64,000 nt of DNA, from NCBI RefSeq assembly GCF_902459525.1, contig NZ_LR699166.1, positions 969,501 through 1,033,500 on the forward strand. The letters run 5' to 3'. The stretch's first letter is position 1, and each line of letters starts with the position of its first letter. The notes beneath the pieces were generated by a model. It was not told the DNA's origin and searched no databases. It worked only from the letters and a program-made list of their open reading frames with translations. The position numbers and the translations under genes are program-made. This document shows, in pieces, positions 3,152-22,894 of this stretch. This DNA is from Sideroxydans sp. CL21 (lineage in GTDB: Bacteria; Pseudomonadota; Gammaproteobacteria; Burkholderiales; Gallionellaceae).

Positions 3152-3263
3152 GTGCCATCCGCAGATATTAACCGGATGGATAAGGGATAAAGAGCATGCA
3201 AGTCCGTTCCGGACAAGCCAAGCGGTATAGGCGGATAGACAATCCAGAAATAGGGAATGATTG

Positions 3264-3794
3264 ATGAATCCTTTTGGCAACCTTGAAAAGGTATTCAAGC
3301 GAACGGATTCGAAATTCGGGGAATATCGTTTGGTGAACATCTGGTATATCGAGGCACCCCTGGAGACAGTCTGCGATGCCATCTATCATTCGCTGAGCTG
3401 GCCGCAATGGTGGCTGAATGTGGTGGAGGTCAAGGAGATTGCGTCGGGTGATGCTCAGGGCATCGGCAGTGTGCGTCGTTACACTTGGCGCGGATATTTC
3501 CCTTACCGGTTCACTTTTGATATCTGTGTCATCCATTTTGCCCCTCTGGCTTTCATCGTGGGCACCGCCAGCGGAGATGTGGAAGGGCAAGGCCGTTGGT
3601 CATTCACGACTGATGGCAACGTGACCACCGTGCGGTTCGAATGGCAAGTGAGAACCACGCCAGTCTGGATGAACTGGTTGGCGCCGTTTGCGCGCCCATT
3701 CTTCAAGTGGAATCACAACGCCGTCATGCAGCGGGGCGGTGAGGCATTGGCACACATGCTCAAAGCGCGTTTGGTCAATGTTGTGCATTCTTGA
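3264..3794 (+). CDS. SRPBCC (polyketide cyclase/START-like) family protein
   Basis: About 176 residues. A TTG at 3261 also opens the frame, but the adjacent ATG at 3264 fits the AGGGA site better. The protein begins a START-like fold at roughly residue 20 (YIEAPLETVCDAIYHSLSWPQWW) and shows alternating beta strands and a long C-terminal helix with HNAVMQRGGEAL. SRPBCC proteins form a deep hydrophobic cavity that binds lipids or aromatic ligands; no ligand is predictable. The last 20 bp overlap the convergent gene on the other strand (its stop is at 3775). Confidence 0.7.
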   Translation: MNPFGNLEKVFKRTDSKFGEYRLVNIWYIEAPLETVCDAIYHSLSWPQWWLNVVEVKEIASGDAQGIGSVRRYTWRGYFPYRFTFDICVIHFAPLAFIVGTASGDVEGQGRWSFTTDGNVTTVRFEWQVRTTPVWMNWLAPFARPFFKWNHNAVMQRGGEALAHMLKARLVNVVHS

Positions 3795-4275
3795 CCGATA
3801 CCCTGGCGTTCAGTCCTTGGTAAACCAGAATGGCAGTCAGACCGAATACCCCGTGCGCTATCAGCGTGATCCAACCCCGTGTTTGGTCAAACCAAGGGAA
3901 GATCATTGTAAAACCATACAGATTGACCAAATAAAGCATGCCGCCAAAGCCGATACCAAGCAGAAACGCAGAAACGGATTTCAGGAAAGCTGCGATTGAT
4001 GCCAGTAATGCGGCATAAATGACGGAAAGGGAAAAGTGGATCAACGTGGCTACCAGCATCACCGTGGCATCGAATGTCGCAGGAGGAGGCAAAACCGAAA
4101 TACCCAGTATGACTGCCGCAGTCAGGCGAGCATCGCGGTACAGAATGGCCGGTAAACCATCGGTGAAGATCAGCCACAGGAGCATCTGTATGAGTGTGGA
4201 TACGATGCCCGCGGCGATGCCCGCAAGAACGATAGACAACCAGACGGACTTGAGGTTTGCGCGGCAGTTATTCAT
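3775..4275 (-). CDS. Conserved four-helix membrane protein
   Basis: The frame extends to 4353 but the ATG at 4275 (GGAATGAG just upstream) leaves a 166-residue protein starting MNNCRANLKSVW and removes a low-quality leader. Four strongly hydrophobic helices are visible: IVLAGIAAGIVSTLIQMLLW, the VMLVATLIHFSLSVIYAALL stretch, a glycine-rich third helix and a C-terminal GVFGLTAILVY helix. A proline-rich loop (LPPPATFD) lies between helices 1 and 2. Proteins of this type are common in proteobacteria, sometimes mislabelled as symporters. Function unknown. It converges with the SRPBCC gene and overlaps its 3' end by 20 bp. Confidence 0.6.
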   Translation of the reverse strand: MNNCRANLKSVWLSIVLAGIAAGIVSTLIQMLLWLIFTDGLPAILYRDARLTAAVILGISVLPPPATFDATVMLVATLIHFSLSVIYAALLASIAAFLKSVSAFLLGIGFGGMLYLVNLYGFTMIFPWFDQTRGWITLIAHGVFGLTAILVYQGLNARVSVKNAQH

Positions 4276-4951: not shown

Positions 4952-6013
4952 TCAGGCATATTGCTCGAAGACAGCATTGAACGCTTCATGATTCTGTTTG
5001 AACGCGGAAAATATATCCGGATCGAAATGTTCCGGCATGGTGCGACCGTCCCCGTTTGAAATGATGTCGACGGTCTTTTGATGATCGAATGCGGGTTTGT
5101 AGGGGCGCTTGCTGCGCAGGGCGTCGTAGATGTCGCAAATATTCATGATGCGTGCCGCGATAGGGATCTCCTCTCCGCGTTTGCCATTCGGATAACCTCC
5201 GCCGTCCCATCTCTCATGGTGATTCAGCGCGATCTCGGCACCCATCCTGAGATAAGGCGACTTGCTGTTGCCGAGGATCTCCGAACCCATCGCGGCATGT
5301 CCCTTCATGATCTCCCATTCGTCCGGTGTGAAGCCGCCGGGTTTGAGCAGGATATGGTCGGGGATACCTATCTTGCCGACATCGTGCATCGGGCTGGAGA
5401 AAAAAATGTTGTCAACGAATGCATCATTCATTCCGAGAAGTTTTGCAAGGTCGCGGCAGTAATAGCTGATGCGTTTCACGTGCGCACCGGTGTCTTCATC
5501 TTTGTGTTCCGCTGCACGTGTCATGGCAAAGATGGTCTCCAAGTAGTTTTCCTGAAGGTCGGCGGTCCTTTGACGTACGCGTTGCTCCAGCACATCGTTG
5601 TACTGGTGCAACTCCTTGTGCAACAGCCTCACTTCAAGCATGTTGTGCACGCGTGCCAGCACCTCGGGCAGTTCGAAAGGCTTGCTGACGAAATCCTTCG
5701 CCCCGGCTTTCAATGCATGCAGCTTGTGATCCGGCTGGGCGGTGACCACAAGAACCGGAAGATAATCGCCTGTCTCGATCTTCTTCAGGCCTTCCATCAC
5801 CTGGAACCCGTCCATGCCGGGCATCTGCAAATCAAGCAGGATCAGGTCGTAGTTGTTCGCGGCGTGAAGTTCGCAGACTGTGCCGGAATCCATCGTGGTC
5901 GTGATGGCGTCATAGCCGGCGCTGCGCAGGATCCGCTCAAGCAAACGGACGTTCGCTTCCTGATCGTCCACGATCAGGATCTTTCCGTGGAGTATGTCGA
6001 GAGAGTTGATCAT
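4952..6013 (-). CDS. Response regulator with HD-GYP domain (c-di-GMP phosphodiesterase)
   Basis: 353 residues. Residues 10-130 form a receiver domain with acidic pocket D16/D17, phospho-acceptor D61, T91 and K111. A coiled linker (about 130-165) leads to an HD-GYP domain: H210-D211 in MHDVGKIGIPD, H265-H266 in NHHERWD, and GGGYP at 271-275. All residues expected for a metal-dependent c-di-GMP phosphodiesterase of the RpfG type are present. It is the last gene of the unit that begins at 10635, 36 bp after the REC-MgtE gene. Its receiver is very like those of the REC-MgtE and REC-PAS proteins in this island, pointing to one module joined to different outputs. Confidence 0.92.
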   Translation of the reverse strand: MINSLDILHGKILIVDDQEANVRLLERILRSAGYDAITTTMDSGTVCELHAANNYDLILLDLQMPGMDGFQVMEGLKKIETGDYLPVLVVTAQPDHKLHALKAGAKDFVSKPFELPEVLARVHNMLEVRLLHKELHQYNDVLEQRVRQRTADLQENYLETIFAMTRAAEHKDEDTGAHVKRISYYCRDLAKLLGMNDAFVDNIFFSSPMHDVGKIGIPDHILLKPGGFTPDEWEIMKGHAAMGSEILGNSKSPYLRMGAEIALNHHERWDGGGYPNGKRGEEIPIAARIMNICDIYDALRSKRPYKPAFDHQKTVDIISNGDGRTMPEHFDPDIFSAFKQNHEAFNAVFEQYA

Positions 6014-6049: not shown

Positions 6050-7192
6050 CTAGATATTCTGTTTCACCAGAACCGACGCCAAACCCAGCAGCATCCCCAT
6101 GCTTGCCACATTCGTTGCAGTAGTGAGGAAAATGCTGGAGGCTGTTGCGGGGTCGGCTCCGAAACGTTTTAAAACGAGCGGCACGATGGCACCGCAGACA
6201 CCGCTGATGACGCAACTGCCGGTCATGGCAAGGAAGACAACAGCACCGAGCATGGGCGCGCTGGGCAAGTGTTGTACGATGGCGAGAACATACATGCCAA
6301 TCGCGGCCACCAATCCAACCAGTGCACCATTGAACAAACCAAGCAGCGCTTCTTTCCTGACCAGCCGGTTTTTCCTGCCCGTTTCCAAATCGCCCAGGGC
6401 GATGCCACGCAGGGTGATCGCCAACGCCTGGCTACCGGTGTTGCCGGACTGGTCGGCCAGTACCGGCAGGAATATGGTAAGAATCAGCAGATGGTTAATG
6501 GTGTCCTGAAAAAGGCCCACCACGGCGGCAGCAAGAAAGGCAGTGAACAGGTTGATCTGTAGCCAGGGGTGGCGCAACCTTAAACTTTGCATCCAGGGGG
6601 TGCCGACGCGTTCCCCTTTTTCGACACCGACCATGGCGCCAGGCAGGAGGCTCAACTCAAGTGAGCGCTTCTGCTCCGCCAGTACCTTGTTGTAAAGATC
6701 CCTGATCTCGTCGCTTTTGTGCAGTATCAGTTCGCGGCTTGCCTCCACTTCCCGGACTTTTTGCGCCAGCGCCGCACTGTGGTTTTTTTCCTCGCGGTGC
6801 AACAGGCGCACTTCCAGCATATTGTGTACGCGCGCCAGCACCTCGTTCAGTTCATACGGCTTGCCGATGAAATCCTTTGCACCGGCCTGAAGCGCGCGCA
6901 GCTTGTGACCCGGCTGAGCGGTAATGACCAGGACAGGGAGATACCCGTCAGTTTCGGTTTCCTTGAGATTTTCAATGACCTGAAACCCGTCCATGCCCGG
7001 CATGCGAAGATCGAGCAGGATCAGGTCATAGTGGTGCTTGCGGTGCAAATCGCAAACCTCGCGCGGATCCATCGTGGAGGTAATGGAACCGTAGCCGGCG
7101 CCGCGCAGCATGTTTTCGAGCAGGATGATATTGGCTGCCTGGTCGTCAACGATCAGGATCTTGCCGTGAAGAATGTCGGATGCACTTGTCAT
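6050..7192 (-). CDS. Receiver domain fused to MgtE magnesium-channel membrane domain
   Basis: 380 residues. Residues 8-130 are a full receiver (D16, D17, D61, T91, K111). A charged helical linker (about 130-175) joins it to a hydrophobic region of five predicted helices (about 195-378). That region matches the MgtE transmembrane domain: LRHPWLQINLFTAFLAA, then PVLADQSGNTGSQALAITLRG, ALGDLETG, a LFNGALVGL helix and a final SSIFLTTATNVASM helix. The usual MgtE N-domain and CBS pair are absent; the receiver takes their place. In canonical MgtE the last helix carries a conserved Asp in the TTxxD motif that helps form the ion site; here it is Asn. The reading frame is continuous across the junction. 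Unit order is kinase, this gene, HD-GYP regulator. Confidence 0.88.
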   Translation of the reverse strand: MTSASDILHGKILIVDDQAANIILLENMLRGAGYGSITSTMDPREVCDLHRKHHYDLILLDLRMPGMDGFQVIENLKETETDGYLPVLVITAQPGHKLRALQAGAKDFIGKPYELNEVLARVHNMLEVRLLHREEKNHSAALAQKVREVEASRELILHKSDEIRDLYNKVLAEQKRSLELSLLPGAMVGVEKGERVGTPWMQSLRLRHPWLQINLFTAFLAAAVVGLFQDTINHLLILTIFLPVLADQSGNTGSQALAITLRGIALGDLETGRKNRLVRKEALLGLFNGALVGLVAAIGMYVLAIVQHLPSAPMLGAVVFLAMTGSCVISGVCGAIVPLVLKRFGADPATASSIFLTTATNVASMGMLLGLASVLVKQNI

Positions 7193-7215: not shown

Positions 7216-10200
7216 TCAGGCTGAATCGGTTTCAGCCATATCCAGCGCAATCTCCAGCGCTTCGATGAACTCGTCGACTTTGATCGGCTTGGTGATATAG
7301 CGGAAGAACCCCGCCCTCAGACCCCTTTCGATGTCGAGGGGCATGGCATTTGCACTGATGGCAATGACAGGGATGTGTTTTGTGGACGGATCGGCACGCA
7401 GCATCTTCAGTGCTTCATAACCGTTGATGTCGGGCAGATTGATGTCCATCAATATCACCTCGGGGAGGGATGCGCGCGCGATCTCGATGCCGCTGTTCCC
7501 GTTGATGGCAGTCAGCAGGCTGAGGTCGGGATAACGCGCGATGACCTGCTCGACCAGTTTCATGTTGGCCGGATTGTCTTCCACGTAGAGCAGCGTGTGT
7601 ATTCGTGCCGCCCGCGATCCAAATGGCGGGCGCAATGGTGTCGCGGCGTCGGTGACGGCGGCGGCTTCCGCGACAAATTGCGGCTCGGCAACCGAGTTGA
7701 GTTCGAACCAGAATGTGCTGCCCGCACCAACGGTGCTTTCCACGCCGATGATTCCTCCCATCAGTTCAACCAGCCGCTTGGCGACCACAAGCCCGATGCC
7801 TGTCCCTTCTTCACCGCCGGCTTCCTGCCCTAGGCGGTTGAACGGCTGGAATAGCTGCGACAGCTGTTCTGGATTCAATCCTGCCCCGGTATCCTTGATG
7901 CTCACGCGGATGTGTCCCGGTGTGCTTTCATTGCAGCTCACTTCAACCGTTCCCTGCTTGATGTTGTATTTGATCGCGTTGGTAAGCAGGTTGATGAGAA
8001 CCTGTTTGAGCCTGGTTCTGTCGGCACTGACAAAAATGTCCGTGTCGAACAGGGGGAAGCTCAGTTTGACGCCACGCTGTTGTGCCTGGGGTTCGATCAT
8101 GCCCTGGCAATCGAGCATGACTTCGGCCAGCGATACAGGCTCTTCCGACAATGGAACCTGCCTGGACTCGACTTTGGCAAGATCCAGAATCTCGTTGATC
8201 AGCTTCAGCAGGTGCCATCCTGCCTGAAGGATCTGGGCGATGCTGTCCTTCTGGGAGGAGGTTGCAGGGGGAGAATCCGATTCCATCAGCTGGGCAAAGC
8301 CAAGGATGGCATTCAACGGGCTGCGCAGTTCATGGCTCATGCTGGAAAGGAATTCAGACTTGGCGAGGTTGGCCTTTTCCGCCACAGACCGTGCGCTTTC
8401 CAGCTCGACATTCTTTTCCTGCAGCACCTGATCCAGCAGTTTGCGTTCGGTGACGTCGCGTGCCGCGGCGAACACGCCCTGCAATCTGCGGTCGCGGTCA
8501 TAGAAGGTGGCCGCGTTGAAGGACACCACCGTTTCCTTGCCGTCCCTGGCGCGCGCGGTCAGTTCGTAATTGGTGACTTTCTTGTTGCTCAGGACCAGTT
8601 TGATGCTTGCCTCTGCCTTGTCCGGATCGGTGAAGTAATTCTTGAACGGCGCACCGATTAACTCGTCGCGGGTGCAGTCGGTCAGCGTCTCCATCTGCTT
8701 GTTCACGTCGGTGATGATGCCGGACGGATCGGTGGTCATGATCGCGTCGATGTTGGATTCGAACAGCGAGCGCGTGTAGAACTGATGGTCGCGCAATCGC
8801 TGTGCGAGCTGCTTCTGGTCGGCCTCGATCTGCTTGCGCGCGGTGTTGTCGGTGCCGATCAGCAGGTAGCCGATGATGGTGTCCTGGGCATCGCGCAATG
8901 CGGTGACCGAGACAACGGCCGGGAAGCGGGTGCCGTCCTTGCGAATATAGGTCAGTTCATAGATATCCTCGATACCGCGCGAGGCCTTGAACACCAGCGC
9001 CTCGAAGCCAGGTGTGATGGGCGTGCCCAGTTCTGCGCTCAAAGCTTTTGCGCGCGCGATCACCTCCTGCGGGTCGGAGATATCGGCCGGTGTGATCTTG
9101 TTCATCACCTCGGCGGCGGTGTAGCCCAGCATGCGTTCGGCGCCGACGTTGAAGATCTGGATGACGCCCTTGGCGTCGGTGGCGATGCTGGAGAAGTTGG
9201 CGCTGTTGAAGATCGCGCTTTGCAATGCGCCCGCCTTGAGCAGTGCTGCTTCTGCCTGCTTGCGCGCGGTGTTGTCGGTACCGATCAGCAGGTAGCCGAT
9301 GATGGCGTCCTGGGCATCGCGCAGTGCGGTGACCGAGACGACGGCCGGGAAACGGCTGCCGTCCTTGCGAATATAGGTCAGTTCATAGATGTCCTCGATA
9401 CCGCGCGAGGCCTTGAACACCAGCGCCTCGAAGCCGGGTGTGATGGGCGTGCCCAGTTCTGTGCTCAATGCTTCGGCACGCGCGATCACCTCCTGCGGGT
9501 CGGAGATATCGGCCGGGGTGATCTTGTTCATCACCTCGGCGGCGGTGTAGCCCAGCATGCGCTCGGCGCCGACGTTGAAGATCTGGATGACGCCCTTGGC
9601 GTCGGTGGCGATGCTGGAGAAATTGGCGCTGTTGAAGATCGCGCTTTGCAGCGCACCCGCCTTGAGCAGCGCCTCTTCTGCCTGCTTGCGCGCGGTGTTG
9701 TCGGTACCGATCAGCAGGTAGCCGATGATGGCGTCCTGGGCATCGCGCAGTGCGGTGACCGAGACGACGGCCGGGAAACGGCTGCCGTCCTTGCGAATAT
9801 AGGTCAGTTCATAAATATCCTCGATACCGCGCGAGGCCTTGAACACCAAGGCTTCGAAGCCGGGTGTGATGGGTGTGCCGAGTTCTGTGCTTAGCGCCTT
9901 GGCGCGAACGATCACTTCCTGAGGATCGGAAATGTCGGCCGGCGTGATCTTGTTCATCACCTCGGCGGCGGTGTAGCCCAGCATGCGCTCGGCGCCGACG
10001 TTGAAGATCTGGATGACGCCCTTGGCGTCGGTGGCGATGCTGGAGAAGTTGGCGCTGTTGAAGATAGCGCTTTGCAATGCGCCAGCCTTGAGCAGTGCTG
10101 CTTCCGCCTGCTTGCGCGCGGTGTTGTCGGTACCGATCAGCAGGTAGCCGATGATCGTATTCTTGTCGTCGCGCAAGGCGGTGACCGACACAACGGCCGG

Positions 10201-10635
10201 GAAGCGGGTGCCGTCCTTGCGAATATAGGTCAGTTCATAGATATCCTCGATACCGCGTGAGGCCTTGAACACCAGCGCCTCGAAGCCTGGCGTGATGGGG
10301 GTGCCCAGTTCTGCACTCAACGCTTTTGCACGCGCGATCACCTCTTGCGGGTCGGAGATATCGGCCGGGGTGATCTTGTTCAGGACGTCGGTCGCCATAT
10401 AGCCCAGCATGCGCTCGGCACCGACGTTGAAGATCTGGATCACCCCCTTTTCGTCGGTAGCGATGCTGGAAAAGTTTGCACTGGTGAGAATCGCGTTCTG
10501 CAGGGCACCGGTTTTAAGCAATGCCTCCTGAGCTTTGAGCCAGGTTGCCCGTTTGCCGGTATCGGTCAGGTCATCCTTTGCGCCTGCAGAAGAGCCGAGT
10601 AGGGATGGATCGCTGGAACTATAACTATTTTGCAT
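7216..10635 (-). CDS. Hybrid sensor histidine kinase with four near-identical tandem PAS domains
   Basis: 1139 residues, no membrane helix, so cytoplasmic. Residues 38-179, 180-321, 322-463 and 464-605 are four copies of one 142-residue PAS/PAC unit (GTDNTARKQ at each end). A fifth, different PAS domain follows (about 610-735). The kinase core has phospho-acceptor H768 in MSHELRSPLN, the N-box around N886, DTGAGL and GTGIGL. A C-terminal receiver has D1064 and K1116. It is the first gene of a three-gene unit with two response regulators (REC-MgtE, REC-HD-GYP), its likely phosphotransfer partners. The same PAS unit occurs once in each of two other kinases of the island. Confidence 0.92.
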   Translation of the reverse strand: MQNSYSSSDPSLLGSSAGAKDDLTDTGKRATWLKAQEALLKTGALQNAILTSANFSSIATDEKGVIQIFNVGAERMLGYMATDVLNKITPADISDPQEVIARAKALSAELGTPITPGFEALVFKASRGIEDIYELTYIRKDGTRFPAVVSVTALRDDKNTIIGYLLIGTDNTARKQAEAALLKAGALQSAIFNSANFSSIATDAKGVIQIFNVGAERMLGYTAAEVMNKITPADISDPQEVIVRAKALSTELGTPITPGFEALVFKASRGIEDIYELTYIRKDGSRFPAVVSVTALRDAQDAIIGYLLIGTDNTARKQAEEALLKAGALQSAIFNSANFSSIATDAKGVIQIFNVGAERMLGYTAAEVMNKITPADISDPQEVIARAEALSTELGTPITPGFEALVFKASRGIEDIYELTYIRKDGSRFPAVVSVTALRDAQDAIIGYLLIGTDNTARKQAEAALLKAGALQSAIFNSANFSSIATDAKGVIQIFNVGAERMLGYTAAEVMNKITPADISDPQEVIARAKALSAELGTPITPGFEALVFKASRGIEDIYELTYIRKDGTRFPAVVSVTALRDAQDTIIGYLLIGTDNTARKQIEADQKQLAQRLRDHQFYTRSLFESNIDAIMTTDPSGIITDVNKQMETLTDCTRDELIGAPFKNYFTDPDKAEASIKLVLSNKKVTNYELTARARDGKETVVSFNAATFYDRDRRLQGVFAAARDVTERKLLDQVLQEKNVELESARSVAEKANLAKSEFLSSMSHELRSPLNAILGFAQLMESDSPPATSSQKDSIAQILQAGWHLLKLINEILDLAKVESRQVPLSEEPVSLAEVMLDCQGMIEPQAQQRGVKLSFPLFDTDIFVSADRTRLKQVLINLLTNAIKYNIKQGTVEVSCNESTPGHIRVSIKDTGAGLNPEQLSQLFQPFNRLGQEAGGEEGTGIGLVVAKRLVELMGGIIGVESTVGAGSTFWFELNSVAEPQFVAEAAAVTDAATPLRPPFGSRAARIHTLLYVEDNPANMKLVEQVIARYPDLSLLTAINGNSGIEIARASLPEVILMDINLPDINGYEALKMLRADPSTKHIPVIAISANAMPLDIERGLRAGFFRYITKPIKVDEFIEALEIALDMAETDSA
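8821..10524 (-). repeat. Four tandem 426-bp repeats encoding PAS domains
   Basis: Copies lie at 10099-10524, 9673-10098, 9247-9672 and 8821-9246 (reading order of the gene), each exactly 426 bp, in frame and differing at few positions; the first copy is the most divergent. The period was checked with the recurring CCTGCTTGCGCGCGGTG segment at 9255, 9681 and 10107. Such long near-identical direct repeats should be prone to copy-number change and to assembly collapse. Confidence 0.93.
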
Positions 10636-10793: not shown

Positions 10794-10836
10794 ATCATAG
10801 GAAATATTTCACTTGTCTACCGTGCGCTTACGCACA
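10794..10836 (-). promoter_or_regulatory. Crp/Fnr-type palindrome and -10 for the PAS4-kinase unit
   Basis: Plus-strand 10822-10835 reads GTGCG-CTTA-CGCAC, a perfect inverted repeat with Crp/Fnr spacing. On the minus strand a TATGAT hexamer (10799-10794) begins 29.5 bp from the dyad centre, which would put the site near -41.5 (class II position). It lies about 190 bp upstream of the ATG at 10635 and overlaps the stop codon of the preceding gene. Confidence 0.6.
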
Positions 10837-12414
10837 CAAAACATCATAACGTGGCAGTGAAACAGAGATCGTGGTCTGGTCCTCCTTGTCGATGACTTTC
10901 AGCGAAATCGTGCCGTTCTGGGCTTCTGTGAGCATTTTGGCCGAATATGCGCCGAGGCCGGTCCCGCCTTGTTTACCGTGGGTGACGAACTTGCCGAAGA
11001 ATTGTTCGCGAATCGCGGCAGGGACGGCCCCCTTGTTAAGGATATTGATGCACAGAGGTGAACCATCGATGAGAGTGACGGCTACCCGGCTATTATTTGG
11101 AGCCGCTTCGCAGGCATTCTTGACCAGATTCTGGAGCAGGGAATTGCAGAACGTGGCATCGCCCAGCACCAGTGGTTCATGTTCTCCCGGTGGGAGATCG
11201 ATATCGAAGACGACATCAAGATGTTTTTCGGCGAAAGTCGTATGGGAAATCTCGACGATGCGATACAGGATGTCGACGATCTTGACCGGTTTGGCATCGA
11301 GTTTGAAACGCCCGGTCTCAATCTTGAAGAGTTCGGAGGACAGGTTGATCATGTCGAGCACATCCAGTGCGGAATCTTCGGCCATACGCAGCTGCCTGAC
11401 CTGTTCGGTGTTCAGCTTGCTGTCGTATGCCAGCGACTGCACCAGCCCGATCACACCGGCCAGCGGTCCTTTCATGTCATGCCGCGAGATATGTTCGACC
11501 TGCTCGCGCAGTCGCGCCAATTCCAGCATGCCGTCATAGTTGGCCTGCAATTGCTTGCGCAATCCGACGTAGCGCATGAAGTTGTGCACGCGCAACTTGA
11601 GCGCATCGGGATCGATGGGTTTGGTGACGAAGTCCACAGCGCCGAGTTCCAGACCTTTTTGCCGCTCGTTCTCGCCGGTCAAGGCAGTGACGAAGATCAC
11701 CGGAATGGTTTCCGATGAGGGATGTTCGCGCATGCGCCTGGCCACTTCAAAGCCATCCATACCGGGCATCATGATGTCGAGCAGCACCAGGTCGGGCGGA
11801 TTGTCGGATTGGCAGATCGCCAGCGCCTTCGCGCCGGTATGTGCGATACGCACACGATATTCGTCCTTGAACAGGTGTGAAACCAGAAGCAGATTGTCCG
11901 CGGTATCGTCCACTACCAGCATCGTCGGGCGTCCCGGCTCGAATGCGACCGCCTGGTGTGCGGTATCGGACGACTCCGTTGATAAATTCCCGCCCCGCGC
12001 CAATTCCGCGAGCTTGGCTGAATTCGAACGGGGGCGGGCCGACAGCGCTTTTTCAACACGTTCCGCGAGACAGATCGCGGTATAAGGTTTGACCAGCAAG
12101 TCACTGACGCCTGCGTTGATTGCTTCCTCGATGCGGTGGCGCTCGGCTTCGGCGGTGATCATGATGAAAGGCAAGCGGGCCAGCTTTTCATCGGTGCGCA
12201 TCGCCTTGAGCAGATCGATACCGGCCATGACCGGCATGTTCCAGTCGGAAAGCACGATGTCTATCCGCTTGTTTTGCAGCATGCGCAGCGCCTCGGCACC
12301 GTTGGCGGCCATCACGATGCTGTCGGCACCCATCGAGCGCAGTTGATTGGCGGTGACTTTGCGCATCGGCTCCAGGTCATCGACAACGAGGAACCGGGTT
12401 TTCTTGTCGAGCAT
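10828..12414 (-). CDS. Dual-receiver histidine kinase (REC-REC-HisKA-HATPase)
   Basis: The open frame reaches 12552, overlapping the upstream gene, but the ATG at 12414 behind GGAAGAGAGACAGGAT begins directly before a receiver and is preferred: 528 residues. Receiver 1 has D57 in LSDWNMP, receiver 2 has D213 in LLDIMMPGMDG with K265. A dimerisation helix carries the likely phospho-acceptor H312 in SRHDMKGPL, then an ATPase domain with NLVKNACEA and GGTGLGAY. No PAS or membrane part is present, so it takes input through its receivers from another kinase. It is the last gene of the unit started by the CHASE3 kinase at 17587. Confidence 0.88.
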   Translation of the reverse strand: MLDKKTRFLVVDDLEPMRKVTANQLRSMGADSIVMAANGAEALRMLQNKRIDIVLSDWNMPVMAGIDLLKAMRTDEKLARLPFIMITAEAERHRIEEAINAGVSDLLVKPYTAICLAERVEKALSARPRSNSAKLAELARGGNLSTESSDTAHQAVAFEPGRPTMLVVDDTADNLLLVSHLFKDEYRVRIAHTGAKALAICQSDNPPDLVLLDIMMPGMDGFEVARRMREHPSSETIPVIFVTALTGENERQKGLELGAVDFVTKPIDPDALKLRVHNFMRYVGLRKQLQANYDGMLELARLREQVEHISRHDMKGPLAGVIGLVQSLAYDSKLNTEQVRQLRMAEDSALDVLDMINLSSELFKIETGRFKLDAKPVKIVDILYRIVEISHTTFAEKHLDVVFDIDLPPGEHEPLVLGDATFCNSLLQNLVKNACEAAPNNSRVAVTLIDGSPLCINILNKGAVPAAIREQFFGKFVTHGKQGGTGLGAYSAKMLTEAQNGTISLKVIDKEDQTTISVSLPRYDVLCA

Positions 12415-12514
12415 ATCCTGTCTCTCTTCCGTTATACGGCGTTGTCCGGTGCTGTCCCGCATTTCCGGTGCGGGCAAATGTGGCTCGCGCAAATATTCCC
12501 GGCCGGAGCCATCG

Positions 12515-13000
12515 TCACTTTGCGTGTGTATTGGTATGCGGAAGCCATTCAAGCTTGGCTACCTCGAATTCAAGATAATTGTTCTGATTGCGCAGGAGAT
12601 CGGCCATGGCCTTGAGCGCCAGATGGGTCTTCACACGGGCCAGGACGATGGGCGGGCTGATTGGCTTGGTGATGTAATCGACCGCACCCAGCTCCAGTCC
12701 TTTTTGTTCGTCCGCCACTTCAACTTTGGAGGTGAGGAAGATCACCGGGATGTTCATTGTTCCGGGGTCGAGTTTGAGTTGTTGGCACACTTCGTAGCCG
12801 TCCATGCCGGACATCATGATGTCGAGCAGGATCAAGTTCGGGGGAACATCGGATGCAGCGATCTTCAATGCCTTCTCTCCCGAGTTGGCCACCTTCACGT
12901 TGTAGTAATCCTTGAGCAGGTTGCTCATCAGTGCCAGGCTGTCCGGCGTGTCATCCACCACCAGTATCGTGGGTCTTTCGGCATGTACGGGTGTATTCAT
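12515..13000 (-). CDS. Stand-alone response regulator (receiver only)
   Basis: 161 residues beginning MNTPVHAERPTILVVDD. A complete receiver fold occupies about 10-130: the DD pair, phospho-acceptor D60 in LILLDIMMSGMDG, T/S and K in YITKPIS. A short helical C-terminus with no output domain follows. It starts 10 bp after the stop of the large CHASE3 hybrid kinase and overlaps only the unlikely N-terminal extension of the next kinase. Its position between two multidomain kinases suggests a phosphate shuttle within a phosphorelay; the output would be a protein contact. That role is inferred. Confidence 0.88.
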   Translation of the reverse strand: MNTPVHAERPTILVVDDTPDSLALMSNLLKDYYNVKVANSGEKALKIAASDVPPNLILLDIMMSGMDGYEVCQQLKLDPGTMNIPVIFLTSKVEVADEQKGLELGAVDYITKPISPPIVLARVKTHLALKAMADLLRNQNNYLEFEVAKLEWLPHTNTHAK

Positions 13001-13009
13001 GGCGGGCTT

Positions 13010-16000
13010 TCAAGTGGTTGCTTCAATGGCGGCTGCTCCCGAGCCGATCGAAGCTGCATTCAGTGCCGCGATCGCAGTTTCGAAATCGAGTGAGCGGATG
13101 CTGTCGTCTATCTTGTGAAACTGCTCGGGGAACGCGGCATTGAGCAGCTCAGAATTTGCATCCAGCAAATCACCTGCCGCCGCGTCGTCCGCGGCAAGTA
13201 ACGCCAGCAACTGTTCACAGACAGCCCTGAGTCTCATGGGGTCGACCTTGACAGGCAGGTTCTGCTGTTCCTCGGGCAAACTCTTTTCCAGTTGGGTAAT
13301 GAACTTTGTAAGCGGCTTTCTCAGTTCGCCGAGACGGGCATCGATCTCCTTGCGCGGTTGGCGTTCCCTGATTGCGGCTTCGAGTTTTTCTGCCAGCAAT
13401 TGCAAGCCGCTAGCGCCGATGTTGCCGGAAACACCCTTCAGTGTATGGGCGAGACGTTCCGCAGTATCCCAATCCTTGCTTTCCAGCGCATCGAAGATTT
13501 CCACTGTTGTTGATTCCTGTCCGGTGACGAACTTGCGCAGCATCCAGAGATAAAGTGCCTTCTTGCCGAGTACGCGGCGCAGGCCGTTGGCGATGTCCAG
13601 TCCCTCGATACCGGATGGCAAGTCGACTTCCTGCGCTACCGGTTGTTTCAGGCCGGTTGCGGATGCCGGAAAGTGCCGGGGCTTGATCCATTTGAGCAGC
13701 GCCTTCCACAAGTCTTCCGGCTCGATTGGCTTGGCGACATGATCGTTCATGCCCGCCGCCATGCAGCGATCGCGGTCGCCCTGCATGGCGTTGGCAGTCA
13801 TGGCTACCACCGGAAGATCCTTGAAACGCACATCCTTGCGTATTTCTTGCGTCGCGGTCACGCCGTCCATCACAGGCATCTGCATATCCATCAACACGAT
13901 GTCGTAATGGGTCGATCTGATCTTTTCCAGCGCGATCTGGCCGTTTCCGGCCAGGTCGACAAGGAATCCGGCATCGTGCAGCAACTCGGTCGCCACTTCC
14001 TGGTTGAGGTCGTTGTCCTCGACCAGCAGGATGCGGGCCCCCTTGATGGTGGCGAGTTGTTCGACGGTATCGGTCGGTACGTCACCGGCTCTGCGCGGGA
14101 TATTGACGACATCTCCCAGCATGCGTACCACGCCGTCAAAAAGTACCGAGGCACTGACAGGCTTGATCAGTACATCCTCGATGCCTGCATTTTCAGCTCC
14201 CCGGATGACTTCCTCGCGGCCATAAGCGGTCACCATCATCAAGTGCGGGATCCGCTCCAGCGGAAGTTCCCCCAGTCGCTTTGCAGTCTCGACGCCGTCC
14301 ATGACCGGCATCAGCCAGTCGATGAACACGATCTCGAAGGGCATGCCCTGTGTCTCGGCCTGGGCTACGGCATCAATGGCCGCCTGTCCGGACTCCGCCT
14401 GGTCGACCTTGAAGCTCATGCCGGAGAGCAGCTCGCCCAGTACCTGGCGTGCATACTCGTTGTCGTCCACCACCAGCACGCGTTTGCCCTGCAGGTCGCC
14501 GGACAGCGCCATCTTGCGCTGCTGGCCCACGCCCTTGTCGAGGCGCGCGGTGAACCAGAAAGTGCTGCCTTTGCCGGGTACGCTTTCAACGCCGACCTCG
14601 CCGCCCATCAGTTCGGCCAACTGTTTCGAAATGACCAGCCCGAGGCCGGTACCGCCGAATTTGCGTGTGGTCGAAGTGTCAGCTTGTGAAAAACTCTGGA
14701 ACAGGCGCCCGATATGTTCCGGTGTCAATCCGATGCCCGTATCGCGCACCGCGCAGTAGATCAATACATCCTTGTCGGTCTGTTCTTTGAGCCGGATGAT
14801 GATGTCGATCTCGCCGCGTTCGGTGAACTTGACGGCATTGTTGCTGTAGTTGATCAGTATCTGCCCCAGTCGCAGCGGGTCGCCGATCAGGTATTGCGGC
14901 ACATTCTTGTCTATGTCGAAAACCAGCTCCAGCCCCTTGGTCGAAGATTTTTCGGCAATCAGGTTGGCCACATTGTCGAGCACCGACTCCAGTTCGAATT
15001 CGGTGCGCTCGACTGTCAGCTTGCCCGCCTCGATCTTCGAAAGATCGAGAATGTCGTTGATGATGCCCAGCAGATGCTGGCCGGAGCCTTTGATCTTCTT
15101 GATATAGTCGCGCTGGCGCGGCGTCAGGTCGGTCTTCATCGCCAGGTAGGACATGCCGATGATGGCATTCATCGGGGTGCGAATTTCGTGACTCATATTG
15201 GAGAGGAAATCCGATTTGGCGAGGTTGGCCTTTTCCGCCACAGACCGTGCGCTTTCCAGCTCGACATTCTTTTCCTGCAACACCTGATCCAGCAGTTTGC
15301 GCTCGGTGATGTCGCGAGCCGCGGCGAACACCCCCTGCAATCTGCGGTCGCGGTCATAGAAGGTGGTCGCGTTGTAGGACACCACCGTTTCCTTGCCGTC
15401 CCTGGCGCGCGCGGTCAGTTCGTAATTGGTGACTTTCTTTTCGCTTAGCACCTGCTTGATGCCTTCTTCCGCCCGGTCCGGGTCGGTGAAGTAATCCTTG
15501 AACGGCGCACCGATCAACTCGTCGCGGGTGCAGTCGGTCAGCGTCTCCATCTGCTTGTTCACGTCGGTGATGATGCCGGACGGATCGGTGGTCATGATCG
15601 CGTCGATGTTGGATTCGAACAGCGAGCGCGTGTAGAACTGATGGTCGCGCAATCGCTGTGCGAGCTGCTTCTGGTCGGCCTCGATCTGCTTGCGCGCGGT
15701 GTTGTCGGTGCCGATCAGCAGGTAGCCGATGATGGTGTCCTGGGCATCGCGCAATGCGGTGACCGAGACAACGGCCGGGAAGCGGGTGCCGTCCTTGCGA
15801 ATATAGGTCAGTTCATAGATATCCTCTATGTCGCGCTTCGCCTTGAACACCAGGGCTTCGAAGCCCGGCGCGATGGGGGTGCCCAGTTCGGTGCTCAATG
15901 TCTCGGCACGCGCGATCACTTCCTGAGGGTCGGAGATATCGGCCGGGGTGATCTTGTTCATCACCTCGGCGGCGGTGTAGCCCAGCATGCGCTCGGCGCC

Positions 16001-17587
16001 GACGTTGAAGATCTGGATGACGCCCTTGGCGTCGGTGGCGATGCTGGAGAAATTGGCGCTGTTGAAGATCGCGCTTTGCAGTGCACCCGCCTTGAGCAAT
16101 TCATCTTCCGCATTCCTGCGGGTGCTGATGTCGCGCACGATGCCGACGAAATAGCGTTGACCGTCCAGCCGCATCTCGTTCACGGCCAAGTCCATCGGGA
16201 AGACACTGCCGTCCTTGCGTCGCCCGGAGACTTCGCGGCCGATACCGATGATGCGCGCTTCGCCGGTGGCCAGATAATGCGCGAGATAACCATCGTGCTG
16301 GCTGTGATAGGGTTCCGGCATCAGCATATTGAGATTTTTGCCGAAGGTCTCGGCAGCGGTATAGCCGAAGATAAGCTCGGCAGCCGGGTTTGCTGTCTGG
16401 ACGATGCCGTGTTCATCAATGGTGATGATGCCATCCGGTACGGTATTCAGTATGGTCTGGATCAGCGAGGCGTTGTCGCGCAGGGTCTGCTGTGCGGCAT
16501 ATTCCCGGGTGACATCGCGGAACACCAGCACGGCACCGGCCACTTTGCCGTCGCTGCCGCGTATCGGCGCGCAACTGTCGGCAATGGCGCTCTCGCTGCC
16601 GTCGCGTGCGATCAAAACGGTGTGGTTGGCCAGGCCCTGTATCGTGCCGTGAGCAAGGGTTGCCATGACGGGGATCGCGGAGCGTTGGCGGGTTTCCTGA
16701 TTGATGATGTGAAATACCTCATCCACCGGATGCCCGATGGCTTGTGCCTGCGTCCAGCCGGTGAGGAGTTCGGCAAGGGGGTTCAGGATTTGCACCCGAG
16801 CTTCTACATCGGTGACCAATACCGCATCGCCGATGGAGTAAAGCGTCACCGCGAGCTTATCTTCGCTGATCTGCAGGGTATCGTTTGCCTGCCGCAGCTG
16901 CTTGTTCATCTCCTCTTGCACTTCGAGGAGATGCCGTGTTTCGGCATGTACCAGATTTTGCAGCCGCTGCCGGGTTTCCCGATAGATGAAATAGGCGAAG
17001 GCCAGTGCCAGCAGCAGCACCAGCAGGCTGGTGAAAACAATGGCTGCCAGCATGCGTTGCATGTCCGACTGGAATTCGGCTTCATGCTGCGTCTGTATGC
17101 CATCCTCCAGCTGGATGTACAGGCTCATTTCGGCACGGATCGCATCCATCAGTTGCTTGCCGTGACCATTGCTTAACCGCGCCAGGACAGCAGCCATGTC
17201 GTGTTTGCGGCGCGACTCAATGGTCTGCGCCAGTTCCACCAGTTTTGCATCGATCAGCGGTGCCATTGCATCCAGGTGTTGTTGGGCGGCTGGAATCAAA
17301 GTCTGCCGGCGCAGTTCTGCGAGATGCAGTTTGAGACCGTCGCGCACTGCCAAATAGGGTTCCAGGTAGGACTCGTCGCCCGTCAACAAATATCCGCGCT
17401 GACCAGTTTCCGCATCCTTCAACAAGGACATCAGATCGCCCGCGCTGTTCATGAGGAAATGGCTATGCTGCCGTGATTCCGCAGCCTCCCCGATCTGACG
17501 GTAGGCCAGGAACGCAGCGCTCACCGCTACGGCAACGAATAGCCCGGTACCTGCAAGTAAAGCAACGAATTTATGATTGGTTTTCAA
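13010..17587 (-). CDS. CHASE3 multi-PAS hybrid kinase with two receivers and HPt
   Basis: 1525 residues, TTG start at 17587 behind AAAGGGGCG. Helix about 8-28, periplasmic CHASE3 domain (about 35-175, with [13 protein letters not shown]), helix about 181-203. Then PAS (about 240-365), PAS (about 372-490), one copy of the island's 142-residue PAS unit (496-637), another PAS (640-770), phospho-acceptor H800 in [10 protein letters not shown], ATPase with DTGIGL and GGTGLGL, receiver D1090, receiver D1234 and an HPt domain with H1381 in [10 protein letters not shown]. This is a complete intramolecular phosphorelay of the BarA/TodS class and the only clearly membrane-anchored kinase in the island. 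A 311-bp stretch (15516-15826) is identical to 8660-8970. Confidence 0.93.
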
Positions 17588-19493: not shown

Positions 19494-20324
19494 TCAGGCA
19501 GGGGAGATCGTTCCGGTCACATCCTTGCCGATGCCGCGGTAGCCGATAAAGCGTCCCGTCGGATTGAACATCGGTTCTCCGCTCACCATCAGGAATTGCC
19601 TTGTGCCATCGGGTTTGGTCCTGCTGTAGACAAAATCCAGGAACGGTTTTCGGGTGGCCAGATTGGCTTCCAGCATTTCCCGCTCGCTCTCGTTCCAGGT
19701 TCCGCCGTGATCGTCTCTGGTGTGGCCGAGCTCGTCGTCGACCCGGATTCCGAGCATTTCAAATACCGGGCCGAAGATCTTGGTGAACTGGCCGTGTTCA
19801 TCCTGCTCCCAGTACCAGTCGGACGATAATTCAGTCAGGCGTTGATAGCGTGCTTCGCTTTTGCGCAGCTCGGCTGTGCGCTCCTGTACCGTCTGTTCCA
19901 GCTCCCGGTTTTGCTGTTCCAGTTTTTTGTACAACAGGCGCACTTCGAGCATGTTATGGATACGCGTCTGCACTTCAACCAGGTCGAACGGTTTGGCGAC
20001 GAAATCCTTGGCGCCCGCGGCGAGCGCACGCAGTTTGTGATCCGGTTGGGCGGTGATCACGAGCACGGGAAGGTAGCCGTCCGATTCGATTTCCTTGAGG
20101 CCTTGCATCACCTGGAAGCCATCCATGCCGGGCATCTGCAGATCGAGCAGGATCAGGTCGTAGTTGTTCTCGCGATGCAGTTCGCAGACCACGAATGGAT
20201 CTGTCGTCGATTCGATGCCGGAATACCCGACGGCTCTCAGCATTTCTTCCAGCAGCAGCACATTGGATGGCTGGTCATCCACAATCAGAATGCGGGCGCT
20301 GCGGATTTCCTGTTCATTTATCAT
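19494..20324 (-). CDS. REC-PAS response regulator
   Basis: A GTG at 20354 also opens the frame, but the ATG at 20324 is preceded by GGAGGCAATAAA and is chosen; 276 residues. Receiver about 8-130 with D61 in LILLDLQMPGMDG and K111. A coiled coil (about 130-155) leads to a PAS domain (about 158-270) starting RYQRLTELSSDWYWEQDEHG. No enzymatic output is present. The receiver closely resembles those of the HD-GYP and MgtE fusion proteins. It follows the 847-residue hybrid kinase and ends the Crp-kinase-regulator unit. Confidence 0.88.
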   Translation of the reverse strand: MINEQEIRSARILIVDDQPSNVLLLEEMLRAVGYSGIESTTDPFVVCELHRENNYDLILLDLQMPGMDGFQVMQGLKEIESDGYLPVLVITAQPDHKLRALAAGAKDFVAKPFDLVEVQTRIHNMLEVRLLYKKLEQQNRELEQTVQERTAELRKSEARYQRLTELSSDWYWEQDEHGQFTKIFGPVFEMLGIRVDDELGHTRDDHGGTWNESEREMLEANLATRKPFLDFVYSRTKPDGTRQFLMVSGEPMFNPTGRFIGYRGIGKDVTGTISPA

Positions 20325-20350
20325 TTTATTGCCTCCTGCCTCATTTGCGA

Positions 20351-22894
20351 TCACTGTTCTGTTTTGGAAAATTCCAGTGCATCGTCCAGCGCGTTCAAAA
20401 ACTCGTTCACCTTGATCGGCTTGGTAAGATAGCGGAAAAAGCCGGCTTCCAGCCCTCTTTCGATATCGTGCTGCATCGCATTTGCACTCAGGGCAAGCAC
20501 GGGGATCTGCTTTGTTGCCGGATCCTTGCGCAGGATCTTGAGTGCCTCTATGCCGCTGATGTCCGGCAGGTTGATGTCCATCAAGATCACTTCCGGGAGG
20601 TGGGTTCGTGCAAGCGCGATGCCGTGATGTCCATCGCGGGCACTCAGCATGTTCACATGCGAAAGCCCCCCGATGATGTGCTCGACCAGCATCAGGTTGG
20701 CCGGATTGTCTTCCACATAGAGCAGTGTGCCGGCTTTGATCTCGTTTCGAGCTGACGGTGCATTTTCAGCGGGAATGCTGTTTCGGGTTGCATAACTCGG
20801 CGGCACACACCGTATCAGTTCTATCCAGAATTGGCTGCCCTTGCCTACGCTGCTTTCCACGCCGATGGTGCCGCCCATCAGTTCGACCAGTTGCTTGGCA
20901 ACGACCAGGCCCATGCCTGTCCCTTCCTCTGTACCGTTCTCCTGCCCGAGCCGATTGAACGGCTGGAACAGCTGCCCGATCTTCTTCGACGACAGTCCCG
21001 CGCCGCTGTCCCTGATGCTGATGCGTATGTGTTCCGGACCGGTCGCGCTGCATTCCACCGTGACCGTTCCATGCAGGCTGTTGTATTTGATCGCGTTGGA
21101 AAGAAGATTGATCAGTACCTGCTTGACGCGGGTTCGGTCGGCGTTGGCAAACCATGAGTGATCGAAAGGGAGGAATTCCAGCCGGATATGGTGCTTTTGC
21201 GCCTGCGATTCGATCATGGATTGGCATTCGTGCATCACATCGATCAGCGACACGGGTTCCCGCGACAGCGACAGCTTGCCGGATTCGATCACGGCAAGAT
21301 CGAGTATCTCGTTGATCAGTTCCAGCAGATACCAGCCGGCCTTGGTGATCTGGTGCAGTCTTTCCGATTGGGAAACGGTAAGCGACGGCGACCCGGCTTC
21401 CAGCAACTGCGAGAAACCGAGAATGGCGTTGAGCGGCGTGCGCAATTCGTGGCTCATTCTCGAAAGGAAATCCGACTTGGCGAGATTGGCTTTTTCCGCA
21501 GTGGATTTTGCTTTCTTCAGGTCGATATTGTTTTGCTGCATAACCTTGTCCATCTCGTTGCGCTCGGTGATATCGCGCAGGATGCAGGTAAAGTAGCGCT
21601 GACCGCGCAACCACATCTCACTGAGCGCTATCTCGATCGCAAAGCTGCTGCCGTCCTTGCGCTTACCCAGGACTTCATGCCCCGGAGGGGTGTCCTGTAC
21701 CTCATCGCTCACCTGAAGCGCCTGGAAATGATTGCTCTGATCCCGATCGATCTCGGGTATCAGCATGTTGAAATCCTGTCCGACAAGCTCCTCGGTGGAG
21801 TAGCCGAACATCTTTTCGGCGGCCGGATTTGAGCTCTCGATCTTGCCGCTGCTGGCAATGAAAGTGACAATGCCGTCCACCACGGTGTTGAGTACCGTCT
21901 GAACCATTGCGGCATTGTCGCGCAACGTCTGCTGCACGATATATTCCTCGGTGACGTCGCGGAACACCAGCACGGCGCCGATCACATGGCCGTCGCGGTC
22001 GCGTATCGGTGCGCAACTGTCGGCAATGGCGCATTCGCTTCCGTTGCGTGCGATCACAATGGTGTGGTTGGCCAGGCCCTGTATGGTGCCGTGCGCCAGG
22101 GTTTCCTTGACCGGGATAGGCGAAGACAGACGGGTTTCCTGGTTGATGATGTGGAATACTTCGTCCACCGGGCGGCCGAGCGCTTCCGCTTTTGTCCAGC
22201 CGGTGAGTTTTTCGGCCAGCGGGTTCAGCAAGGTCACTCGCGATTCGGCATCGGTGGTGATCACCGCATCGCCTATCGAGTTGAGCGTCACGGCGAGTCT
22301 TTCTTCGCTGACTTGCAAGGTGAGGTTGGTTTGCTGCAGTTGCCGGTTCGTCTGCTCCTGAATATCGAGCAACTGTTGCCGTTCGGCTTCGATCAGCTTG
22401 CGCGCGGTGTTGTCGGTGCCGATCAAAAGATATCCGATGATGAAACCCCGTGCATCGTGCAGGGCGGTGACCGACACGATGGCCGGAAGGCGCGTGCCGT
22501 CCTTGCGGATGTAGGTCAATTCGTAAATATCCTCGATGCCGCGCGAAGCCTTGAATACCAATGCCTCGAAGCCGGGTGTGATCGTCGCTCCGAGTTCGGC
22601 GCTCAATGCCTTGGCGCGCGCGATCACTTCCCGCGGATCGGAGATGTCGGCCGGGGTAACCTTGTTCAGCACATCGGCTGCCTTGTAGCCCAGCATGCGT
22701 TCGGCCCCGATATTGAATATCTGGATGACGCCCTTTTCGTCGGTGGCGATGCTGGAAAAGTTCGCACTGTTCAGGATCGCGTTCTGCAGGGCGCCGGTTT
22801 TGAGCAATGTTTCCTGCCTGCGAATTTCGGTCAAGCCTTCCGCCGAAGCGGAAGACGGATTGCAGATGTCGGGATTGTGTAGTTCTTCAACCAT
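20351..22894 (-). CDS. Hybrid sensor histidine kinase with three PAS domains
   Basis: 847 residues with a strong AGGAGG site overlapping the stop of the Crp/Fnr gene, so the two are coupled. Residues 29-170 are one copy of the shared 142-residue PAS unit, followed by PAS (about 195-315) and PAS (about 325-445). H482 in MSHELRTPLN is the phospho-acceptor; the ATPase domain has NLLSNAIKYN, DSGAGL and GTGMGL. The C-terminal receiver carries D773 in LMDINLPDISG. Soluble, no membrane helix. The kinase core and receiver strongly resemble those of the four-PAS kinase at 7216, so the two are paralogues. Confidence 0.92.
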   Translation of the reverse strand: MVEELHNPDICNPSSASAEGLTEIRRQETLLKTGALQNAILNSANFSSIATDEKGVIQIFNIGAERMLGYKAADVLNKVTPADISDPREVIARAKALSAELGATITPGFEALVFKASRGIEDIYELTYIRKDGTRLPAIVSVTALHDARGFIIGYLLIGTDNTARKLIEAERQQLLDIQEQTNRQLQQTNLTLQVSEERLAVTLNSIGDAVITTDAESRVTLLNPLAEKLTGWTKAEALGRPVDEVFHIINQETRLSSPIPVKETLAHGTIQGLANHTIVIARNGSECAIADSCAPIRDRDGHVIGAVLVFRDVTEEYIVQQTLRDNAAMVQTVLNTVVDGIVTFIASSGKIESSNPAAEKMFGYSTEELVGQDFNMLIPEIDRDQSNHFQALQVSDEVQDTPPGHEVLGKRKDGSSFAIEIALSEMWLRGQRYFTCILRDITERNEMDKVMQQNNIDLKKAKSTAEKANLAKSDFLSRMSHELRTPLNAILGFSQLLEAGSPSLTVSQSERLHQITKAGWYLLELINEILDLAVIESGKLSLSREPVSLIDVMHECQSMIESQAQKHHIRLEFLPFDHSWFANADRTRVKQVLINLLSNAIKYNSLHGTVTVECSATGPEHIRISIRDSGAGLSSKKIGQLFQPFNRLGQENGTEEGTGMGLVVAKQLVELMGGTIGVESSVGKGSQFWIELIRCVPPSYATRNSIPAENAPSARNEIKAGTLLYVEDNPANLMLVEHIIGGLSHVNMLSARDGHHGIALARTHLPEVILMDINLPDISGIEALKILRKDPATKQIPVLALSANAMQHDIERGLEAGFFRYLTKPIKVNEFLNALDDALEFSKTEQ

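Follow-up and report, generated by a model that had tools for sequence, protein, structure and literature searches.

Response regulators are known mainly for DNA-binding, enzymatic or protein-binding outputs. One gene in the stretch of DNA analysed here, 64,000 nucleotides of the Sideroxydans sp. CL21 genome (the window), places a receiver domain ahead of the membrane domain of an MgtE magnesium channel, an architecture for which we know of no counterpart. A receiver that acts on a channel pore would allow a kinase to change ion flux across the membrane without going through transcription. The locus raises the question of what the receiver does there, and whether the pore behind it is still one for Mg2+. 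A reading made from the letters of the window alone (the sequence-only reading) had proposed that the receiver replaces the magnesium sensor of MgtE, so that pore opening would follow phosphorylation.

A receiver fused to an MgtE membrane domain

The open frame lies on the minus strand, running from 7192 down to 6050 (frame 1 of the plus strand has three stops over 6050-7192), and its 380 residues are uninterrupted, as the sequence-only reading had described. Pfam recognizes a Response_reg domain (PF00072, residues 12-122, E 2.5e-26) and an MgtE domain (PF01769, E 1.1e-26; 93.9 bits, cut-off 27.6). The latter match, at residues 242-370, falls within the stretch 190-380 to which that reading had assigned the channel domain. 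At E 0.001, Pfam gave no match in the protein to CBS (PF00571), MgtE_N (PF03448) or any third family. The residues named earlier as those of phosphorylation, D16, D17, D61, T91 and K111, are all present; in an 18-row alignment of the fusion's receiver family the first four are invariant and K111 is nearly so. The fusion gene holds the only PF01769 match in the window's genome (one contig, 3.77 Mb, 99.98% complete). Coordinates of the gene, its parts and its neighbours are collected in Table 1.

Table 1. The receiver-MgtE gene, its parts and neighbouring genes, in window positions
Feature	Position	Strand	Basis or remark
REC-MgtE fusion gene	6050..7192	minus	380 aa, ATG start
Receiver domain PF00072, residues 12-122	6827..7159	minus	Pfam; codon of phospho-acceptor D61 = 7010-7012
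Predicted continuous helix, residues 115-181	6650..6850	minus	AlphaFold2; last receiver helix into coiled-coil-like linker
Connector from CBS-type parent, ELS..PGAMVGVEK.ER..TPW..., residues ~178-206, into TM1	6575..6661	minus	Comparison with non-fused MgtEs
MgtE membrane domain, residues 207-377	6062..6574	minus	PF01769 part, residues 242-370, = 6083-6469
T239, in place of T. thermophilus Ala317 at the periplasmic constriction	6476..6478	minus	Alignment
D247, for Gly325 (TM2 kink glycine)	6452..6454	minus	Alignment
N361, for Asp432 (pore Mg2+ site Mg1)	6110..6112	minus	Alignment
PAS-repeat hybrid histidine kinase, C-terminal receiver, likely partner	7216..10635	minus	23 bases upstream of fusion gene
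REC-HD-GYP regulator, predicted c-di-GMP phosphodiesterase	4952..6013	minus	Downstream of fusion; Pfam
REC-REC-histidine kinase	10828..12552	minus	Upstream; Pfam
Stand-alone receiver protein	12515..13000	minus	Pfam
CHASE3-PAS hybrid kinase, two receivers and Hpt	13010..17587	minus	Pfam
Regulator with close receiver (63% identity), PAS match just under the cut-off (26.6 against 27 bits)	19494..20354	minus	Pfam

Conservation of the fusion

At least 13 distinct intact receiver-MgtE fusions were found, all of one clade. A tree was built, with the pore columns masked, from 73 MgtE membrane domains: those of the 13 intact fusions and of 60 non-fused proteins, 48 near and 12 farther off. It places the fusions on a single branch with support of 100/100; branching order within that branch is poorly resolved. 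Among the best 80 of 574 relatives, fusions occur in the named records L002, L003, L004, L005 and L052. These are titled Gallionella or Gallionellales, except for L003, whose Geobacteraceae label may stem from a binning error or from transfer.

Within the window's family, 19 of 158 genomes have a match to the TM domain at E 1e-40 or better. Judged by the loci read, 12 of them hold the receiver fusion, six hold non-fused proteins alone, and one (G530) has a piece that lacks the N terminus. Of the 12 copies, that of G494 is truncated close to the end of its contig, and those of G500 and G482 were counted through their MgtE parts alone, which duplicate other rows, apparently L002 and L005. The window's genus (34 genomes) has matches at that level in the window's genome (G000) and in G029 alone; the G029 copy (L112) is the same receiver fusion, 95% identical to the window over the MgtE part. 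Outside the family the fusion occurs in G858 and may also be present in G717, of the same genus, where a cut MgtE piece has no visible receiver. The TM domain was also searched for in overlapping sets of 369 genomes of the class, 399 of the order and 398 of the phylum; among the loci read, at most 30 per search, there was no receiver fusion beyond the family and G858. Nor was there a fusion among the matches listed for plasmids (up to 5000 records), where an apparent two-part match from Haloferax was rejected as an ordinary N-CBS-MgtE protein, and two peptide patterns found no relative in viral contigs.

Between the window and L112, dN/dS (Nei-Gojobori) was 0.05 in the receiver, 0.06 in the linker and 0.12 in the TM part; the TM value between the window and L002 was 0.135. 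Over nine pairs the TM part gave 0.10-0.16 in eight and 0.23 in the ninth, with dS saturated in several, and the linker gave 0.29-0.37 in three pairs of fusions that have Ala and Ser at pore positions 317 and 325 (A-S fusions, see below). As judged from the nine sequence pairs tested, the fusion is evidently under purifying selection.

Broken copies do exist and could suggest an assembly artefact, a pseudogene or a chimera. The record L052, titled Candidatus Gallionella acididurans, has tandem REC-MgtE genes (1912-2970 and 3072-4274), the first of which (L052a) has a short linker and is frameshifted near its C terminus; L198 (931-1935, in G494) is non-homologous after the TM3 region, near a contig end, through a possible insertion or assembly edge. 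Against this stand the 13 distinct intact copies of one clade and the purifying selection acting on them, and the probability that the fusion is such an artefact is negligible. A frameshift or chimera separating the two domains is very unlikely, since G029 and the named records share the fusion. The sequence-only reading had left it to a search for the domain pair to show whether the fusion recurs in related genomes; it does, and the receiver-MgtE architecture is real and conserved.

Origin from a CBS-type MgtE

Three near non-fused MgtEs scanned with Pfam (L204, L115 and L122, with TM-domain identities to the window of 71%, 66% and 65%; non-fused relatives overall, 55-71%) all carry two CBS domains ahead of the membrane domain. 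In near MgtEs of this type the MgtE_N match is weak or missing. The receiver of the fusion stands where these proteins have their CBS domains, which bears out the proposal that it takes the place of the sensor.

The fusions and seven non-fused proteins (L113, L115, L122, L124, L204, L207 and L210) have in common the EISAQ-GAMVGVEKEER-ATPW-like segment that, in the latter, joins CBS2 to TM1; the swap therefore retained the stretch into TM1. On these sequence comparisons, the MgtE part of the fusion is derived from CBS-type MgtEs, the N and CBS domains having been replaced by a receiver and helical linker. The likely source is the CBS-type MgtEs found in the order and class to which the window belongs, which share the TM domain and TM1 connector; unlike the fusion, with its receiver and altered pore, they have their own N terminus with two CBS domains and the residues A-G-D in the pore. 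The fusion is thereby a natural domain-swap experiment for MgtE gating, in which the Mg2+ sensor was replaced and the connector kept.

An altered pore

We aligned 113 distinct MgtE membrane domains and compared 97 non-fused ones with the 13 intact fusions. Residue numbering was set on 4U9N and is consistent with A317, G325, G328 and N332 of PMC8104411 (partial text). The window protein resembles T. thermophilus MgtE (PDB 2ZY9/4U9N) in its PF01769 membrane domain, PX6GN motif and D418. It differs in having a receiver and linker where that channel has an N-domain and CBS pair, in having T/D/N for A317/G325/D432, and in ~7 additional residues in the TM3-TM4 stretch.

The strings that the sequence-only reading had quoted as MgtE-family motifs are present in the protein, and PX6GN, an MgtE motif according to the available part of PMC9276622, is kept as PVLADQSGN. 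However, the N of TTATN replaces an Asp seen in 97 of 97 non-fused MgtEs. This is the pore Asp432 of the motif P(D/A)X4PX6D, which is broken in the window protein by Asn361; the second P of that motif is missing both here and in most non-fused relatives.

Across the 13 intact fusions, position 432 is Asn in seven, Gly in two and Asp in four. Position 317 is Ala in every one of the 97 non-fused proteins, against Thr in eight fusions and Ala in five; position 325, Gly in 95 of 97, is Asp in seven, Ser in five and Gly in one. G328 is lost in 6 of the 13. Written as the residues at 317-325-432, all 60 non-fused rows of the tree are A-G-D. The fusion family is not uniform: the basal fusion L187 is T-G-D and so keeps D432; the window, L112, L002, L203, L185, L186 and L003 are T-D-N; three (L005, L188 and L052b) are A-S-D; and L004 and L192 are A-S-G, with no carboxylate at 325 or 432. 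In the lineage of the window the three residues have thus gone from A-G-D to T-D-N. The states A-G-D, T-G-D, T-D-N, A-S-D and A-S-G form a natural series of pore mutants through which the basis of MgtE selectivity becomes testable.

In the TM domain, 35 columns are conserved in 95% or more of the 97 non-fused proteins, and the window protein departs at three of them: A317T, G325D and D432N. Non-fused MgtEs depart at 0.39 of these columns on average and at 13 at most. Four of the 35 columns are named pore, gate or kink residues, and three of three departures would fall among them by chance with P ~0.0006, a post hoc value for which the residue list was made after the departures had been seen, the columns are taken as exchangeable and the fusions are one lineage. 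Under a looser cut (90% or more of the 48 near parents), TM column 236, which is no named pore residue, departs in 13 of 13 fusions, and columns of the linker and connector depart too. In the A-S fusions the change is broader, with departures at between 6 and 11 of the 35 columns, some of them in TM1.

These positions matter in T. thermophilus MgtE. The D432A change in that channel abolished Mg2+ transport (PMC6533229 and PMC5882242, partial texts); replacement of Gly325, Gly328 or Gly435 by Ala almost eliminated Mg2+ complementation by MgtE, and A317 lines the periplasmic constriction (both from the available part of PMC8104411). The idea of a newly gated Mg2+ channel, as the sequence-only reading had it, is therefore not supported in that form, given that A317, G325 and D432 are all changed and that D432A does not conduct Mg2+. 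By residue identity, the membrane domain derives from a Mg2+ channel and has a pore that fails the defining test for the Mg2+ site; 'response regulator with a channel-derived output' is a well-supported description of the fusion. The eukaryotic MgtE homologues, SLC41, likewise have an MgtE pore without a CBS sensor; unlike the fusion, they have two pore repeats (PMC9276622, partial text) and need the pore Asp for transport (PMC6533229, partial text).

The lost Asp may have a counterpart. D325 and N432 occur together in seven of seven intact fusions that bear either, and also in the fragment L197. Counted along the helices, residue 325 is seven positions away from N332 in TM2, and residue 432 eight positions away from N424 in TM5; because N332 and N424 are in contact in MgtE (PMC8104411, partial text), D325 and the lost D432 would, by this helix arithmetic, stand at about the same height. 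This suggests that the carboxylate pair has moved across the pore wall from TM5 to TM2, a shift that would be compatible with altered selectivity or with divalents still passing.

In the latter case the fusion would be a phosphorylation-gated channel for Mg2+ or divalents in general, with D247 on TM2 substituting for the lost TM5 Asp. This accords with the pairing of D325 and N432 wherever both positions are visible and either is present, with their similar height, with the retained PX6GN motif and with the D432 of the basal fusion. It accords poorly with the T. thermophilus variants described above (Gly325Ala with complementation nearly abolished, D432A with conduction abolished), with the change at A317, otherwise universal among the non-fused proteins, and with the A-S-G fusions, which have neither carboxylate. 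We consider it rather unlikely.

The A-S-G fusions favour other ions or no conduction at all. Taken further, and with the Mg1 Asp lost in 9 and G328 in 6 of the 13 intact fusions, the domain could be a non-conducting pseudo-channel that anchors the receiver in the membrane, serves the kinase as a phosphate sink, or informs the array of regulators about ions or the state of the membrane. Yet the TM part keeps the low dN/dS values given above, and the most conserved TM columns of the window protein are intact save at the three altered pore positions, a pattern that resembles retuning and not decay; a mere anchor, moreover, needs no five-helix domain so well kept. A pseudo-channel therefore seems quite improbable.

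Magnesium supply and other MgtE genes

CorA is encoded in 13 of the 14 genomes that hold the fusion or a piece of it. The window's genome has two CorA-family genes (G000:C1:881801-882658 and 3180833-3181690). G858, which lacks CorA, has a strong match to MgtA (TIGR01524, 1226.5 bits), and the idea that the fusion is its sole Mg2+ importer was rejected accordingly; G458 also has MgtA above the cut-off. With CorA or MgtA in all 14 genomes, no need is shown for the fusion as a housekeeping Mg2+ importer, a further point against a divalent channel. A Mg2+-responsive RNA leader for the fusion was rejected as well, there being no Rfam match at the gathering threshold in positions 1-26000 of the window.

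Nine of the 14 genomes have a further place matching PF01769 in another frame, most of ~490-520 codons (profile matches). No other PF01769 protein was found in G000 or G858, whose genomes are 99% complete or more, or in the less complete G029 and G500, and these four genomes count in favour of a fusion that itself passes divalents. The nine genomes with a further match would allow the receiver-bearing subunit to pair with an ordinary CBS-type MgtE and regulate it, and the two tandem fusion genes of L052, one of them frameshifted at its C terminus, could be read in the same way. The window's genome and G858 (99% complete) offer no such partner, however, and a heterodimer with another MgtE was rejected for the window's organism unless the partner lies outside PF01769. 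Overall we judge this arrangement very improbable.

Predicted structure and linker

The AlphaFold2 model has a helix over residues 115-181 followed by helices over five membrane stretches, at a mean pLDDT of 66.3 and pTM of 0.40; from residue 141 onwards pLDDT does not exceed ~50, and it is below 50 at 166-214. When this model, of low confidence, was used as a Foldseek query, receivers ranked first and the MgtE structure 2zy9_A came at rank 37 (E 6.5e-06, probability 1.00, TMq 0.40, rmsd 6.3, 26% identity).

From the last helix of the receiver to TM1, the linker has 87 residues in 12 and 59 in 3 of 15 fusion copies, a count in which L052a (broken) and L198 (cut) are included (11 + 3 were measured by script and L186, with 87, by eye). 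The difference of 28 residues equals four heptads and fits a coiled coil whose register matters; as evidence for register-dependence it is modest, reflecting one to three events. The short linkers (L185, L188 and L052a) are spread over T-D-N and A-S-D fusions and resemble those of REC-cyclase sister regulators. Decay was rejected as their cause, L185 and L188 being intact, and recombination between sister genes would be the more likely origin.

Gene neighbourhood

As the sequence-only reading had noted, the fusion gene sits between a hybrid kinase and a predicted c-di-GMP phosphodiesterase regulator, both on the minus strand (Table 1), and from their spacing the genes around it are likely to form an operon. 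We compared 14 loci: the window, L112, L002, L003, L004, L005, L052 and L236-L242. A hybrid kinase lies directly upstream of the fusion in 11 of them and within two genes in 12. The expectation that the fusion would always be found beside such a kinase thus holds for these; the remaining two are cut by contig ends (L241 has a receiver gene upstream and then the contig end; L005 starts at one). In L240 an extra receiver gene separates kinase and fusion. Nine of the 11 directly upstream kinases have PAS modules; those of L003 and L242 have a receiver instead.

Directly downstream, 11 of the 14 loci carry a regulator with the same kind of receiver, whose output is HD-GYP (5), GGDEF (4), a cyclase (1) or DUF1003 (1). 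L236 and L238 have none, and L242 is cut. In the window, the receivers of the fusion and its HD-GYP neighbour share 72% protein and 74.4% DNA identity. The corresponding values are 98% and 95.8% for the REC-MgtE and REC-GGDEF genes of L004 (6389-7519 and 7596-8555), and 90% and 90.6% for the second fusion of L052. Such near-identical receivers indicate that in some lineages sister genes have exchanged sequence, and suggest that there the sister regulators may answer to a common kinase.

The two window kinases at 7216-10635 and 13010-17587 have in common near-identical PAS modules of ~140 residues, repeated in the first (by eye), which points to recent duplication.

Possible mechanism

Our preferred explanation, to which we give slightly less than an even chance, is that the fusion is a response regulator with a membrane pore as its output, that is, a phosphorylation-gated conductance of altered selectivity. 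The neighbouring hybrid kinase would phosphorylate D61, and the altered pairing of receivers would travel down the coiled coil to a plug-like connector. In MgtE the plug helix, between CBS2 and TM1, contacts TM2 and TM5 (PMC8104411 and PMC9276622, partial texts); the connector of the fusion, acting at these helices, would open or close the dimer pore. The pore would still conduct a cation, with a selectivity other than that of the Mg2+ channel because the carboxylate pair of the Mg1 layer has probably moved from TM5 (D432) to TM2 (D325). A single kinase output could then set a second messenger, through the HD-GYP, GGDEF or cyclase sister, and an ion conductance at once. We infer that the pore is gated by phosphorylation and, from residue identity and helix arithmetic, that its selectivity may be altered. 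The A-S-G fusions L004 and L192 count against this explanation, and conduction may be lost in them.

The sequence-only reading knew of no described phosphorelay-gated MgtE, and our literature search, with much subscription literature outside its scope, likewise found no MgtE paired with a receiver. Among the papers listed on regulators with a channel, a transporter or a membrane-spanning domain as output, none described an MgtE output, and neither 'MgtE' nor 'channel' occurs as a whole word in the census PMC1183210.

A receiver family with interchangeable outputs

Three close receivers occur in the window's genome, those of the MgtE fusion, the HD-GYP regulator (68% identity in this genome-wide comparison) and the regulator at 19494-20354 (63%); the next has 32% identity. 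The nearest solved receiver by sequence is that of PleD. In the loci compared, and by similarity to the queries, members of the receiver family have GGDEF, cyclase, HD-GYP, MgtE, DUF1003 or kinase outputs, and PAS-like, PP2C-like and sigma-54-like tails were seen by eye. The REC-GGDEF and REC-HD-GYP regulators resemble the fusion in receiver and start of the linker and share its locus; their output is soluble and enzymatic, whereas that of the fusion is a membrane pore. The family shows one receiver cassette combined with exchangeable outputs (MgtE, DUF1003, HD-GYP, GGDEF and cyclase) beside hybrid kinases.

Put at its broadest, the fusion could be the first ion channel that a His-Asp phosphorelay gates directly, in which a receiver has replaced the MgtE sensor, the filter has re-evolved with its carboxylates moved from TM5 to TM2, and one kinase sets messenger and flux through interchangeable outputs; the chances of this, in our estimate, are even.

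Another unusual output occurs in the family. In L003, the gene right after REC-MgtE (9142-10149) joins a receiver of the same family to DUF1003 (PF06210), an output that is not MgtE and shows hydrophobic stretches by eye. Regulators of this receiver family also occur in two MAG records titled Bordetella parapertussis (L046 and L073), labels that may be wrong, as the family is otherwise found in environmental MAGs.
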